Positions 48,038 through 55,712 of a stretch of 64,000 bases of DNA are shown here, in pieces. The notes below the pieces were generated by a model. The model saw only the letters and a list, made by a program, of their open reading frames with translations. It searched no databases and was not told the DNA's origin. The stretch lies in contig QHNJ01000006.1 of the NCBI GenBank assembly GCA_003218395.1, positions 20,543 to 84,542 on the forward strand. Reading direction: 5' to 3'. Position numbers and translations under genes: made by a program. Origin of the DNA: Verrucomicrobiota bacterium (lineage in GTDB: Bacteria > Verrucomicrobiota > Verrucomicrobiia > Chthoniobacterales > UBA10450). The first letter of the stretch is position 1. Each line of letters begins with the position of its first letter.

Positions 48038-48535
48038 TCATGTGCGGTTCCTTCTACGAGTTTCCGGTTTCGCGCGCTCGATTTCTGTGCTGATAGCTTC
48101 ATAATCCAGTTTTTCTACCGTCGTCTGCTGATTTCGAATCCGAAGGAGCCAAAGAAACGTGTTTGCATTATCCGGAGCATCAAGCAGGAGACATTTTGTA
48201 GAATTGCGATTCCAGACCGCCTTGATATAGCGGGGTAAAGGTGAATGGCGGAAAAAAACTTGCCCGTCTGATTCGCGAGAAAGAGTAATGATGCACGGCC
48301 CGCGCTCCGACCTCTCGTCGCAGCGCCAGTTTACTTTCCATCTATCATCTGGCGATGGACGAGTAGCATTAGCCAGCATCTCGTGAAGTCGCGACTGCGC
48401 GGGAAGAGCCAACGCAAGCGACGCTGCCACGAATGCTATTATTCCAAAGCGAGTTCCTTGCACCTCTTTAGATCGAGTTTGCCTGAAGCAAGAACGGGAA
48501 TTGCCCCGACGCGCTGGACGTGTTTGGGAATCCAC
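48038..48535 (-). CDS. Hypothetical protein
   Basis: ORF 165 aa, start uncertain, overlaps aas 3' end; internal signal-like segment. Confidence 0.35.
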   Translation of the reverse strand: MDSQTRPARRGNSRSCFRQTRSKEVQGTRFGIIAFVAASLALALPAQSRLHEMLANATRPSPDDRWKVNWRCDERSERGPCIITLSRESDGQVFFRHSPLPRYIKAVWNRNSTKCLLLDAPDNANTFLWLLRIRNQQTTVEKLDYEAISTEIERAKPETRRRNRT

Positions 48536-50634
48536 AAGTTTGGCACACCGGCATCATGAAGTTTTTTGCGCAACTGGGCAAGATCGACATCTACCGCACT
48601 GAGCAGCACGAGCGCTTCGCCTTTGGCTTTGTCTTGCACTCCCACAATGGCGACCATGCGTTCATCTTTTCCGGAGAGATCGAGCAAGTCGACGATCTTA
48701 TGTTCGATCACTTCGTGTGGCACCATTTCCCCGCCGATTTTTGAGAAGCGAGAGAGACGTCCTTCGATGTAAAGAAATCCGTCCTCATCGAACCGGCCGA
48801 GGTCGCCGGTTTTGAGCCAGCCATCTTGAAGCACATCGGCTGTGCGTTCTGGATCGCGCAGATAACCTTCAAATATGTTTACTCCACGGAGCCAAAGCAT
48901 TCCGCTTTCGTGCAACGAAAGTTTGCGGTTCGTCTCTGGTTCGCGAATTTCCGCGGCGATTCCGGGGGCCATTTTTCCCACGGAACCCAAACGACTCGAC
49001 GGTTGTACCTGTTCGCCCTGCTTGGTCGGTCGCGGCTCGGGTAGATTTACGCTCACAACCGGCGAAGTTTCGGTGAGCCCGTAGCCTTCAAACACTCTCT
49101 GGTTGAAGCGTTCCTCGAAATTTTTCGCGAGATCGAGGGGAAGCTTTTCCGCGCCGGTGATGACGAGACGCAAACTGCGGAGCTTGTCCGGGTCGACTTT
49201 TCGCAAATAACCGCGCAAAAAAGTGGGTGTCGCCAGCAGAAGCGTCAGTTTATGTCGTTCGATCAACGCTGCATTCTTTGTTGCTTCCAACGGATTTGGA
49301 TAAGTAACAATGGGCACGCCTTCGATAAGCGGATACCAAAGCGTGACGGTCGATCCGAACGTGTGGAAAAACGGCAGGGATGCGAGAATGGCGTCCTCTT
49401 TCTTCGCGTCGAGCAACTGTCGGAACTGCGAGACGTTTCCGACAATGTTGCGGTGGCTCATCACGACTCCTTTTGGGTCGCCGGTGCTTCCACTCGTAAA
49501 AAGCAAGAGCGCTTCTATGTGACCGCCTGCTTTTGGAATTTGCAAAAGCCACCAAAGCAAACGCGCCGGAACGAGGATCGACATGATCCACCATAAAATG
49601 ATTTGGCGTTTCATTCGCGGCATCAGTTCGTCCAGCTTGAGAACCCGTTCCGGCCACGGAAAACCTTTGAGGCGTTCCATGAATTGCGTGGCCGAAATTG
49701 CGACCCGCAAATTGGCGCGCCTGCAGCAAGATTCATTGGCCGCTCGTCCGATTGTAAAATTAAGATTGACTGGAACTTTGTCTGCCAGTGTCACTGCCAG
49801 ATTCGCCAGCATCGATCCTTTGCTCGCAGGCAGGACAATGGCAATTCGCTCGCCGGGAAATTCCTTTCGAAGATAACGGCTCAATGCCGCGGCGGCGCCG
49901 AGCAATTTCGACCGGGTCAAGAGGCTGTGATCGAGTCCATCGACGACGGCAGTCGCGAAGGGTCTTTTCTTCAATCCGAGAATGCACAGCTCAGCAAGAT
50001 GTCGATCTAACGATGGCCGCCGGCTGAAACAAAATTCGCCGAGCTTGAGCAACTCTTCGCGCACGGTCGCGATATCGGCAGCATTCGCTTCGAGCGGCTT
50101 ACCGAACGCAATTGTAACAGGATACGGGATGCGCTTCGGGAACTTCGTGAAAAATTTTCCGCCTTGGAATGAGAAAATTGAGCCCCAGAGCTGGTCGAGC
50201 CAGACCGGGACGACCGTCGCATTGACGTGGCGTGCAATTAACTCGTAACCACGCCGCAGCCGCAATAACGTTCCGGTGCGTTCAAGCTGGCCTTCGGGAA
50301 AAAGACAGACGATCTCACCCTCGGCGATTTTTTCCGTCGCGGCGCGAATGGCGGAATGCGAATGCCGCGTATCGATCGGGATGCATTGCACCAGCCGCAA
50401 AAACGGATGCAGGAGAGGCTTGCGATAAAATTCCTCGTCGATGATGTACCGAATTGGACGCGGGCAAGTGAGTTGCAAGACGATGGCATCAACCCAGCTA
50501 ATGTGGTTGGGCAAAAGAAGAAATCCGCCTTCCGGCAGATTGTTGATTCCCAGCGCAGTGACCCGATAAAAGCAACGCACCAGCGCGCGGCCGAAGAAAT
50601 AGAGCGCGCGTTCAGCGGCGGACATGGAAGCCAT
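48439..50634 (-). CDS. Bifunctional acyltransferase / acyl-ACP (AMP-dependent) synthetase, Aas-like
   Basis: N-term PlsC domain LLLPNHISWVDAIVLQ...FPEGQLERTG; C-term AMP-binding LLFTSGSTGDPKGVVMSHRNI. Confidence 0.93.
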   Translation of the reverse strand: MASMSAAERALYFFGRALVRCFYRVTALGINNLPEGGFLLLPNHISWVDAIVLQLTCPRPIRYIIDEEFYRKPLLHPFLRLVQCIPIDTRHSHSAIRAATEKIAEGEIVCLFPEGQLERTGTLLRLRRGYELIARHVNATVVPVWLDQLWGSIFSFQGGKFFTKFPKRIPYPVTIAFGKPLEANAADIATVREELLKLGEFCFSRRPSLDRHLAELCILGLKKRPFATAVVDGLDHSLLTRSKLLGAAAALSRYLRKEFPGERIAIVLPASKGSMLANLAVTLADKVPVNLNFTIGRAANESCCRRANLRVAISATQFMERLKGFPWPERVLKLDELMPRMKRQIILWWIMSILVPARLLWWLLQIPKAGGHIEALLLFTSGSTGDPKGVVMSHRNIVGNVSQFRQLLDAKKEDAILASLPFFHTFGSTVTLWYPLIEGVPIVTYPNPLEATKNAALIERHKLTLLLATPTFLRGYLRKVDPDKLRSLRLVITGAEKLPLDLAKNFEERFNQRVFEGYGLTETSPVVSVNLPEPRPTKQGEQVQPSSRLGSVGKMAPGIAAEIREPETNRKLSLHESGMLWLRGVNIFEGYLRDPERTADVLQDGWLKTGDLGRFDEDGFLYIEGRLSRFSKIGGEMVPHEVIEHKIVDLLDLSGKDERMVAIVGVQDKAKGEALVLLSAVDVDLAQLRKKLHDAGVPNLWIPKHVQRVGAIPVLASGKLDLKRCKELALE

Positions 50635-52791: not shown

Positions 52792-53031
52792 ATGCGAAGG
52801 CGCTCTAACCCTGAGTCGGAAGCGAACATCCGCCGCATCGACACGAAAGCTCGTGCGAAGAAGCAAACGCATGGCTTTCAGGTCCATTTTCTTCGCGGCA
52901 GTGAAGTCGTGACAAAGATGTTTAGCGACAGCATCTACGGAGGAAAGGAGGCAGCAAGACGTGCCGCGCGGAAATTCAAGCGCGAGGTCATCCGCCGTTT
53001 GCCGCAGCGGAGATTTGTTGGTTTCAAGTGA
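52792..53031 (+). CDS. Small basic protein with AP2-like fold signature
   Basis: THGFQVHFLRGSEVVTKMFSDSIYGGKEAARRAARKFKREV. Confidence 0.6.
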   Translation: MRRRSNPESEANIRRIDTKARAKKQTHGFQVHFLRGSEVVTKMFSDSIYGGKEAARRAARKFKREVIRRLPQRRFVGFK

Positions 53032-54382
53032 AGGTATCGCAGTTAGCGGGCTTATTTTTGCGATAGACCTTCCAGCATTCTAAGAACCCGGGCGCGAAAT
53101 CTTCCGGTCGCGTCGTGACCCAACCGTCGACAACAGCCGGAGGAAAAAAAGCACCGGTCTCAATTTCACTTCGGTTCGGCGTAGGATTGCCGCGAATCTC
53201 TCCTCCATAAAGCCAGATAAACTCCTGGTCAGTGCGTTCTGAGGCAGGAAGCTTTGAAATCCCTTTAAGAGGAACGTTTACGCCTAACTCCTCTTTCAAC
53301 TCGCGTCGCGCCGCTTCGTCATAGCTTTCCCGGGCCCCTACATGGCCAGCAGCGCTCGAGTCCCACTTCAGAGGATGTCGATCTTTCCCACGCGAACGTT
53401 GCTGTAAATAAACTTCATCTGCTTGGCTGAAAATCAGGATGTGGACGGCACGATGGCGCAAGTTATTCCCATGCACATCGGAACGCTGAGCATATCGTAA
53501 AATTCGATCGTTCTTATCGACAATTGGGAAGAGTTCATTTTTCATCGCTGTTGTCTCTGAGTACACAGGTGGCGCGACATAATTCGCCAAACCAATCCAT
53601 TGAAGCAGCGAGAGCTCTTCCGCTCGAGCTTTGGGATCGAAGCCTAGAGTCGAAGCGGCACGATGCCAATTCGTAACATGCACCCGGAGCAATTTTCTTA
53701 ACTGTTTTCTTCTCTGAGAAAAGCCGTATCGAATCAATTTCGCAAGCAGCTCATCATCGCGCGCAGGTAACTCAAACGGATCGCGAGGCAAGATTCGCAC
53801 CAGCGCGGAATCGACATCGGGTTTTGGAAAGAAAACTGTTGCTGGAATTGTACGCAGATATTGCACGCAATGCTGCAACTGCACGCGCAACGTTAGAAAG
53901 CCGTAATCATGCGTGGACGGCATAGCTGACAGGCGTAGTGCCATCTCATTTTGTAACATGCACAACCACAGTGAGATGGGACTCGGATACGTAAGGAACT
54001 TCAAAAGCAACGCACTTGAGACGTTGTAGGGAAGGTTACCGAGTAGTTTCACCCGACGATGCGAAAAGAGAACACGCCCATCGAACTTCAGCGCGTCCGT
54101 GTTCATCACTTCGAGTCGTGGATGACCGAGGCGTTCGCGCAAAAAATTAGCAAGGCGCGTGTCCTTCTCGATCGCCAGAACTCGCGCGCCTTTCTCAAGC
54201 ATCAGCTTGGTTAGCGCACCTAGCCCAGGTCCGATCTCTACCACATAATCGTCCGCAGTTAACTCCGCTTGATTGACAATCCAGCGTGCAAGATTTTGGT
54301 CGTGCAGAAAATTTTGTCCGAGAGTCTTGACCGGTAAAACCTGTATTTCTCGGAGCGTTGCCCTGATCTCTGAGAGCTTCAT
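53024..54382 (-). CDS. rsmA: RsmA (KsgA) 16S rRNA dimethyltransferase fused to C-terminal Nudix hydrolase
   Basis: LGQNFLHDQNLARWIVNQAELTADDYVVEIGPGLGALT; KLLGNLPYNVSS; then GHVGARESYDEAARRELKEELGV (complete Nudix box) in the same ORF. Confidence 0.92.
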   Translation of the reverse strand: MKLSEIRATLREIQVLPVKTLGQNFLHDQNLARWIVNQAELTADDYVVEIGPGLGALTKLMLEKGARVLAIEKDTRLANFLRERLGHPRLEVMNTDALKFDGRVLFSHRRVKLLGNLPYNVSSALLLKFLTYPSPISLWLCMLQNEMALRLSAMPSTHDYGFLTLRVQLQHCVQYLRTIPATVFFPKPDVDSALVRILPRDPFELPARDDELLAKLIRYGFSQRRKQLRKLLRVHVTNWHRAASTLGFDPKARAEELSLLQWIGLANYVAPPVYSETTAMKNELFPIVDKNDRILRYAQRSDVHGNNLRHRAVHILIFSQADEVYLQQRSRGKDRHPLKWDSSAAGHVGARESYDEAARRELKEELGVNVPLKGISKLPASERTDQEFIWLYGGEIRGNPTPNRSEIETGAFFPPAVVDGWVTTRPEDFAPGFLECWKVYRKNKPANCDTFT

Positions 54383-54521
54383 ACAAAGATCGTCAAACCG
54401 CTCTGGAGAGCACAGAAATTCGCGCTTTTGTTCACAAAATCCTGTGAACAAAATACGGCGGTAGGCGGAAGCTTATTCACAAGTTATTCAATACCTACTC
54501 CAAAACCAGAAGACGCAGGGA

Positions 54522-55712
54522 CTATTTCTCACGAGAGCGCGCTTTGTTTGCCGACTCCGCGCCCGGCAGAGCAAGACGCGCCCGCTTTTTGCGACTGGTC
54601 AGATACGTTCGACGCGCATCCTTTAACGAAACGCCGTCAATAAAAAATACGGTCGCGGCACGGCCAATCGCGTACGTTCCTGATCCCGCCACCAGTCCGC
54701 AGACGACATTTCCCCAACCGGGAAAGAATTTCAGGAGCGCGCGAGTGCCTTCACGCAGAAACATCGCTGCGCCGACGTTCGCACCAAGAGCGCCGATGAA
54801 TTCCGTCGCGGCGCGCAAGCTGCGTTCACGCCCGCTTACATACATGATTCCGGAAATCATCGTGAGCTGCAAACTTGTTAAGATCGGCAGATCGGCGAGC
54901 GGGATTGGTTGTGCGCCGATCGCTGCACAGATGGCAGTCGTGGATTTCACCAAAAGCTGCGCGACTTCGTGCTGGGCTTCGCGATTTCGCGATATCCTGA
55001 TCATTTCCATTCGCGCTTCGTTCGGCAACTCTCGCGCCAGGATCGACATGAGTCGTTGGGCCTGTGCATCAGGCAGTTCCAAGTGTTGATCAGGACCTGC
55101 GGCAACCAATCGCAACGTCTCCAAAAAAGGTTCGAGCCCAGCAGCATTTGATCGAGACGCTGGTCGCAGCCGAACTATAGCGAGATTGGTTTGATTGGGC
55201 CCGGCTACCTCTCCCACCCGCGGAATGATAAACCGAATTACCTTCGTGCTGGTCTCCGATGTCTTGTTCCACGAAAAATTCTTGGTTGAATCATCCAGGT
55301 CACGTTTCCCGGGTTCCTGTGTAATTCCCTCGTCGCTGAGAAAAAAAACAATATCAGCAGGTTGATATTTGAGTTCGTCTTGGAGCTGAATGGCAGTCGA
55401 ACCATCAGCGCCTCGGGCGTCGAGGATCGATATCGTTCCGCGCTCAGTGAAGCTGACATCGAACCAACGGTAAACGCCGACAGCGGCGTCGTCCGTTTGG
55501 ATGAGGTCCGCCGGACCAAACAGCGCACAGACAGTTTTCCCTACGGGAATTTTAGATGAGCCGGCAAAAAGAAAACGCGGTGGGCGCTGCTGGAGGAATA
55601 GTTGCTTGAGTGGGGTAAGCTCGTTGAGGATCGCTTTTCGAATTCTGAAGGGCAACTTGCCCGCGAGACGTTCAAGCCGCTCGACAATCTGGAGAAGTGA
55701 TGGCGGATTCAC
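54522..55712 (-). CDS. DUF697-containing GTPase-like protein
   Basis: PRFLFAGSSKIPVGKTVCALFG; SILDARG; C-terminal LTSLQLTMISGIMYVSGRERSLRAATEFIGALGANVG typical of DUF697. Confidence 0.75.
   Translation of the reverse strand: MNPPSLLQIVERLERLAGKLPFRIRKAILNELTPLKQLFLQQRPPRFLFAGSSKIPVGKTVCALFGPADLIQTDDAAVGVYRWFDVSFTERGTISILDARGADGSTAIQLQDELKYQPADIVFFLSDEGITQEPGKRDLDDSTKNFSWNKTSETSTKVIRFIIPRVGEVAGPNQTNLAIVRLRPASRSNAAGLEPFLETLRLVAAGPDQHLELPDAQAQRLMSILARELPNEARMEMIRISRNREAQHEVAQLLVKSTTAICAAIGAQPIPLADLPILTSLQLTMISGIMYVSGRERSLRAATEFIGALGANVGAAMFLREGTRALLKFFPGWGNVVCGLVAGSGTYAIGRAATVFFIDGVSLKDARRTYLTSRKKRARLALPGAESANKARSREK

Follow-up and report, generated by a model that had tools for sequence, protein, structure and literature searches.

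Late in assembly of the 30S subunit, RsmA (KsgA) dimethylates a pair of adjacent adenosines close to the 3' end of 16S rRNA. Few RNA modification enzymes are as widely conserved as this one; the reason cells keep it is still debated. In E. coli its gene lies in an operon, ksgA-apaG-apaH. The locus described here resembles that operon in linking an RsmA gene to a polyphosphate hydrolase gene; it differs in that ApaH is not a Nudix enzyme and the E. coli genes are unfused.

For the other half of the protein, the closest solved structures, in sequence and in fold, are YfcD (PDB 2fkb) and DR_0079 (PDB 2o5f/1q27); both are stand-alone proteins, and most of the metal-binding His and Glu residues invariant in the fusion are missing from them. 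Type 1 IPP isomerases (TIGR02150; PDB 1hx3, 3hyq) share the scaffold and an aligned set of His, His, His and Glu, but the fusion has Ala where they have the catalytic Cys, together with a full REx2EE Nudix box. The plant enzyme NUDX3, which may have a similar motif, is a possible functional analogue in the hydrolysis of IPP and DMAPP, but it is not joined to an rRNA methyltransferase. NUDX3 is a Nudix enzyme that hydrolyses IPP, DMAPP, GPP and FPP (PMC11062433). A search of open-access papers on KsgA and Nudix proteins found none that describes a fusion of the two, although domain databases of the InterPro type may already list the architecture.

The fusion gene and its domains

The window, which is the whole stretch of 64,000 nucleotides analysed, carries such a fusion on its minus strand at 53024..54382. 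As the sequence-only reading had it, this is one uninterrupted open reading frame, running from an ATG at 54382 to a stop at 53024-53026 and encoding 452 aa with no internal stop. A TTG at 54451, upstream of the ATG, would give a 475-aa reading; the start proposed by that reading is nevertheless right, because Met1 (54382) is kept almost without exception across 58 aligned homologues. The RsmA/KsgA 16S rRNA adenine dimethyltransferase domain occupies 53579..54331 (minus strand; residues about 18-268) and is identified by TIGR00755, PF00398, Foldseek and its motifs. An inter-domain linker of some 13 residues follows (53540..53578, minus strand; residues 269-281), short, of fairly constant length and fast-evolving; then comes a Nudix hydrolase domain (PF00293) of the IPP-isomerase/YfcD/DR_0079 type (53063..53539, minus strand; residues about 282-440). 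In Pfam terms, the protein has RrnaAD (PF00398) at 182 bits over residues 20-269 and NUDIX (PF00293) at 60 bits over residues 309-418. The RsmA half also passes the equivalog cut-off of TIGR00755, with 233 bits against 171. Fusion of a complete RsmA to a complete Nudix domain is thus confirmed as real, and the sequence-only reading was right to call it unusual.

The gene is the sole strong RsmA match of its genome (draft assembly, 2.95 Mb, 335 contigs); the remaining RrnaAD matches are partial, at 22-37 bits, and PF00293 domains number only three. Like described RsmA/KsgA proteins (TIGR00755; PDB 7o5h, 6ift), the N-terminal half is a full-length, single-copy domain with all the motifs (GQNFL, ExGPG, NLPY, FxPxP, RRKQL) and the KsgA fold (Foldseek matches to 1qyr, 7o5h and 6ift, TMt 0.84-0.91). 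These motifs, including the SAM-binding and catalytic ExGPG, NLPY and FxPxP, are invariant or nearly so in 118 fused sequences, and this half probably methylates A1518 and A1519 of 16S rRNA. The complete C-terminal Nudix domain sets it apart: none of the PDB RsmA chains matched has one. An AlphaFold model of the whole protein (pLDDT 93.8, about 61 in the linker; pTM 0.89) suggests that the two domains sit in a defined mutual arrangement.

The Nudix box GHVGARESYDEAARRELKEELGV (53279..53347, minus strand; residues 346-368, with R360, E361, E364 and E365) is where the sequence-only reading quoted it, and matches the pattern Gx5Ex7REUxEExGU completely. Its REx2EE core is present in 118/118 fused sequences and in 39/39 of a mixed set of fused and stand-alone members; at the position of the first Glu, 100 of the 118 have E and 10 have D. 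The domain has the Nudix fold by Foldseek (TMt 0.85-0.91 to 2fkb_A and 2o5f_B). A profile built from the 39 fused and stand-alone members was used for a PDB search; by sequence and fold together, YfcD (2fkb) and DR_0079 (2o5f) come nearest, followed by the IPP isomerases. Four invariant residues, H304, H310, H347 and E387, align with the His, His, His and Glu that act as metal ligands in E. coli IPP isomerase; in this alignment YfcD and DR_0079 are without most of them. The isoprenoid leaning that the sequence-only reading gave to this half has therefore held up.

This half is still not a type 1 IPP isomerase, an identity rejected on two counts: the position of the catalytic Cys (345, equivalent to E. 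coli Cys67) is A in 113, S in 4 and G in 1 of the 118 sequences, and the TIGR02150 score of 44.9 bits is below the cut-off of 105.8. The YfcD equivalog NF011922 likewise falls short, at 68.4 against 152. Because the Cys is replaced by Ala and the Nudix box is intact, unlike the degenerate one of isomerases, the domain should hydrolyse a diphosphate and not isomerise it. Apparently, then, it is a metal-dependent, catalytically competent hydrolase built on the IPP isomerase scaffold.

Distribution of the fusion

The sequence-only reading had itself named two ways in which the fusion might be illusory: a stop codon lost in assembly, or separate translation of the Nudix half from an internal start at MKNELFPIVD. 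Neither can now be given more than the slightest credence. An assembly-caused stop loss is excluded because the same architecture occurs in 171 loci from many assemblies; these usable fused frames make up the aligned set and reduce to the 118 distinct sequences. As to the internal start, MKNEL does stand at a plausible place in the window, but a Met lies within the linker in only 24/118 sequences, and the linker region is nearly constant in length (29 residues between positions 262 and 290 in 83/118); independent initiation is therefore no conserved feature, and is unlikely as the normal mode.

Complete or nearly complete copies of the fusion occur throughout the source genus and order; practically all of the order has it, as do two other families of the class (f15, f18). 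A scan of contigs from named records, of which the best 80 matches are all from Verrucomicrobiota, gave the fusion in at least 80 loci, some clipped by contig ends. The family is open to experiment, because among its members are the cultured Chthoniobacter flavus Ellin428 and, going by the names on draft-genome records, Prosthecobacter debontii and Akkermansia muciniphila. Two reduced genomes of 0.9 Mb, G043 and G052, which to judge by their size and order are probably those of nematode symbionts, have it as well. Each of these two has just two Nudix domains, that of the fusion, with its Nudix box intact, and one that looks RppH-like by eye.

Some genomes of the order gave no match to the fusion. 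No separate RsmA was found in the seven of these checked with PF00398, which may reflect true loss or missing contigs; nor, with these seven followed up, was a split gene seen anywhere inside the fused clade. In G037 and G047 (family f2 of the same order; drafts 94-95% complete) there is no fusion, and RrnaAD matches are weak and partial: RsmA and the Nudix domain seem to have gone together, unless the gene is absent from the draft assemblies. With both seemingly lost, the pair would be dispensable there, barring such assembly gaps.

Two longer open frames were considered and set aside. An 883-aa frame in G135 might have been a second fusion; no Pfam family matches its N-terminal part, which looks like a spurious extension preceding a Nudix gene with a Met start of its own. 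A 1433-aa frame in G248 is merely an open frame running upstream of an ordinary RsmA-Nudix protein, overlapped by a ClpB-like gene on the opposite strand.

Probable route from gene pair to fusion

A relative of the fusion's Nudix domain is present in 133 of the 139 class genomes searched, nearly always in one copy; where a family lacks the fusion, this domain has a gene of its own. Both this gene and ksgA were located in 74 unfused class genomes. In 16 of the 74, from 15 families, the Nudix gene comes after ksgA, on the same strand and no more than 600 bases away; the reverse order was never seen among the 74. The two genes lie apart in the other 58, so coupling is not required. The stop of ksgA and the start of the Nudix gene overlap as ATGA, an arrangement typical of translational coupling, in four of the 16 pairs (L181, L214, L221, L224), and in further pairs the Nudix start falls within some 30 bases of the ksgA stop. 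Beyond the class, the Nudix relatives found were all more distant, and among the pairs compared (by eye, from position tables) none adjoined ksgA.

An extra open frame separates the two genes in two of the 16 pairs, L191 and L208. That of L191 (3861-4424, genome G371) is a 187-aa frame starting MIEIYVSTDVEADG; it has an ATGA overlap with the ksgA stop and looks 3'-5' exonuclease-like by eye.

In a tree of Nudix domains (73 rows) and in one of RsmA domains (49 rows), the fused sequences form a single clade, with support of 99/98 in each. Unfused adjacency appears in at least four separate places in the trees and needs several changes; because the trees are unrooted, gain of adjacency is indistinguishable from loss. 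The fusion most likely arose from a translationally coupled pair, because ksgA lies next to the Nudix gene in 16/74 genomes, four of them with the ATGA overlap. The simplest account would be that the two genes formed a coupled pair long ago and fused a single time, in an ancestor shared by two related groups of the class; some other families would have kept the pair unfused, and in other lineages the genes would have separated.

Proposed function of the fusion and alternative explanations

Selection has treated the two halves alike. Median dN/dS, from non-overlapping pairs of close relatives, is 0.119 for RsmA (36 pairs), 0.116 for Nudix (35 pairs) and 0.28 for the linker (29 pairs); both halves are under equal purifying selection and, to judge by their sequences, look active. 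The explanation we consider probable is that the protein is an ancient bifunctional enzyme, RsmA plus Nudix hydrolase, with a single origin from the coupled ksgA-nudix pair. Its N-terminal half would dimethylate 16S rRNA late in 30S assembly; its C-terminal half would split a small diphosphate compound, most plausibly a prenyl diphosphate (of the IPP/DMAPP type) or a nucleotide. Fusion would then fix the two activities at one-to-one stoichiometry and set the hydrolase beside the assembling subunit. The sequence-only reading had gone further, to a coupling of rRNA methylation with nucleotide housecleaning or sensing. Functional association of RsmA with the Nudix domain is supported, by the neighbourhood in unfused relatives, the one ancient fusion, the invariant active sites and the equal selection; the housecleaning or sensing half of the proposal goes beyond what these observations show, and co-expression alone could explain the fusion.

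That last thought leads to a serious rival, which may well be true though we incline against it: that there is no functional coupling, two adjacent co-transcribed genes having been joined by neutral loss of a stop, with the Nudix half an unrelated housekeeping enzyme and the fusion persisting only since both activities are useful in every cell. Many unfused relatives live with the two genes far apart, and gene pairs with an ATGA overlap are natural starting points for such an event. On the other side stand the same gene order in those 16 unfused genomes, from 15 families and at least four places in the trees, the lack of any observed split gene in the fused clade, and the nearly constant linker length. 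A different challenge would make the Nudix domain a non-catalytic module that binds RNA or protein and assists RsmA in docking to the 30S subunit. A Nudix domain fixed on a ribosome assembly factor would fit such a role, as would the overall arrangement of the model, predicted with confidence, and the Nudix clan does include members that are non-enzymatic (PMC5389931). This we judge improbable, given that all catalytic and metal residues are invariant in the fused sequences and that stand-alone orthologues exist away from ksgA. Hardly more favoured is the proposal that the Nudix half senses or destroys a metabolite, a prenyl diphosphate or an alarmone, and gates RsmA action or release of the 30S subunit, which we think unlikely; if true, ribosome maturation in Verrucomicrobiae would be tied directly to the level of a metabolite through one polypeptide.

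If the bifunctional enzyme is accepted, its substrate is the next question, and the probabilities given to the two classes overlap with that of the enzyme itself because they specify it and do not compete with it. One tentative answer is a prenyl-diphosphate hydrolase, converting IPP and DMAPP to monophosphates and so tying ribosome maturation to isoprenoid supply. It draws on the metal ligands shared with the IPP isomerases, on the rank of these as next best PDB matches, on the NUDX3 precedent, and on the presence of IspH in 16/16 genomes checked, those of 0.9 Mb included, which therefore should make IPP. Against it, the closest PDB entries are YfcD, for which no substrate was found, and DR_0079, the nearest characterised relative, which prefers cytosine nucleotides (PMC5389931). 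The kinship with DR_0079 speaks instead for the equally tentative alternative, a nucleotide or dinucleotide hydrolase acting on oxidised or cytosine nucleotides, Ap4A-like alarmones or capped RNA. RsmA might then be joined to nucleotide housecleaning, in parallel with the ksgA-apaG-apaH operon; the DNA glycosylase activity against oxidative damage reported for E. coli KsgA (PMC10091538) would suit a MutT-like partner. This alternative has to contend with the retention of IPP-isomerase-type ligands, with the lack of any identified base-recognition pocket, and with MutT-type proteins being far weaker matches in the PDB profile search. The two classes are about level; a nucleotide is no likelier than a prenyl diphosphate, because the IPP isomerase ligands are kept here and mostly missing from DR_0079. 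For the bifunctional enzyme as a whole, a lineage in which RsmA has long been joined to a metabolite-cleaving enzyme would offer a concrete handle on the physiological links of RsmA, and whether ribosome building is linked to a metabolite merits testing.

Gene neighbourhood

Within the fused clade no partner gene was found in common beyond close relatives. Upstream of the fusion gene in the window, in the same orientation and across a gap of about 140 bases, lies a gene for a 396-aa protein (54522..55712, minus strand) with a weak DUF697 match, below the Pfam cut-off; it is common to only 4 of the 41 loci compared, and is a possible operon partner in close relatives only. Genes for a radical-SAM protein and a class-III aminotransferase lie upstream of the unfused ksgA-nudix pairs of three families (L181, L191, L192); considered as a functional clue, they have no evident link to the pair. 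Elsewhere in the window, 48439-50634 (minus strand) encodes a 731-aa protein in which an acyltransferase domain is followed by an AMP-binding (acyl-CoA/ACP synthetase-like) domain.
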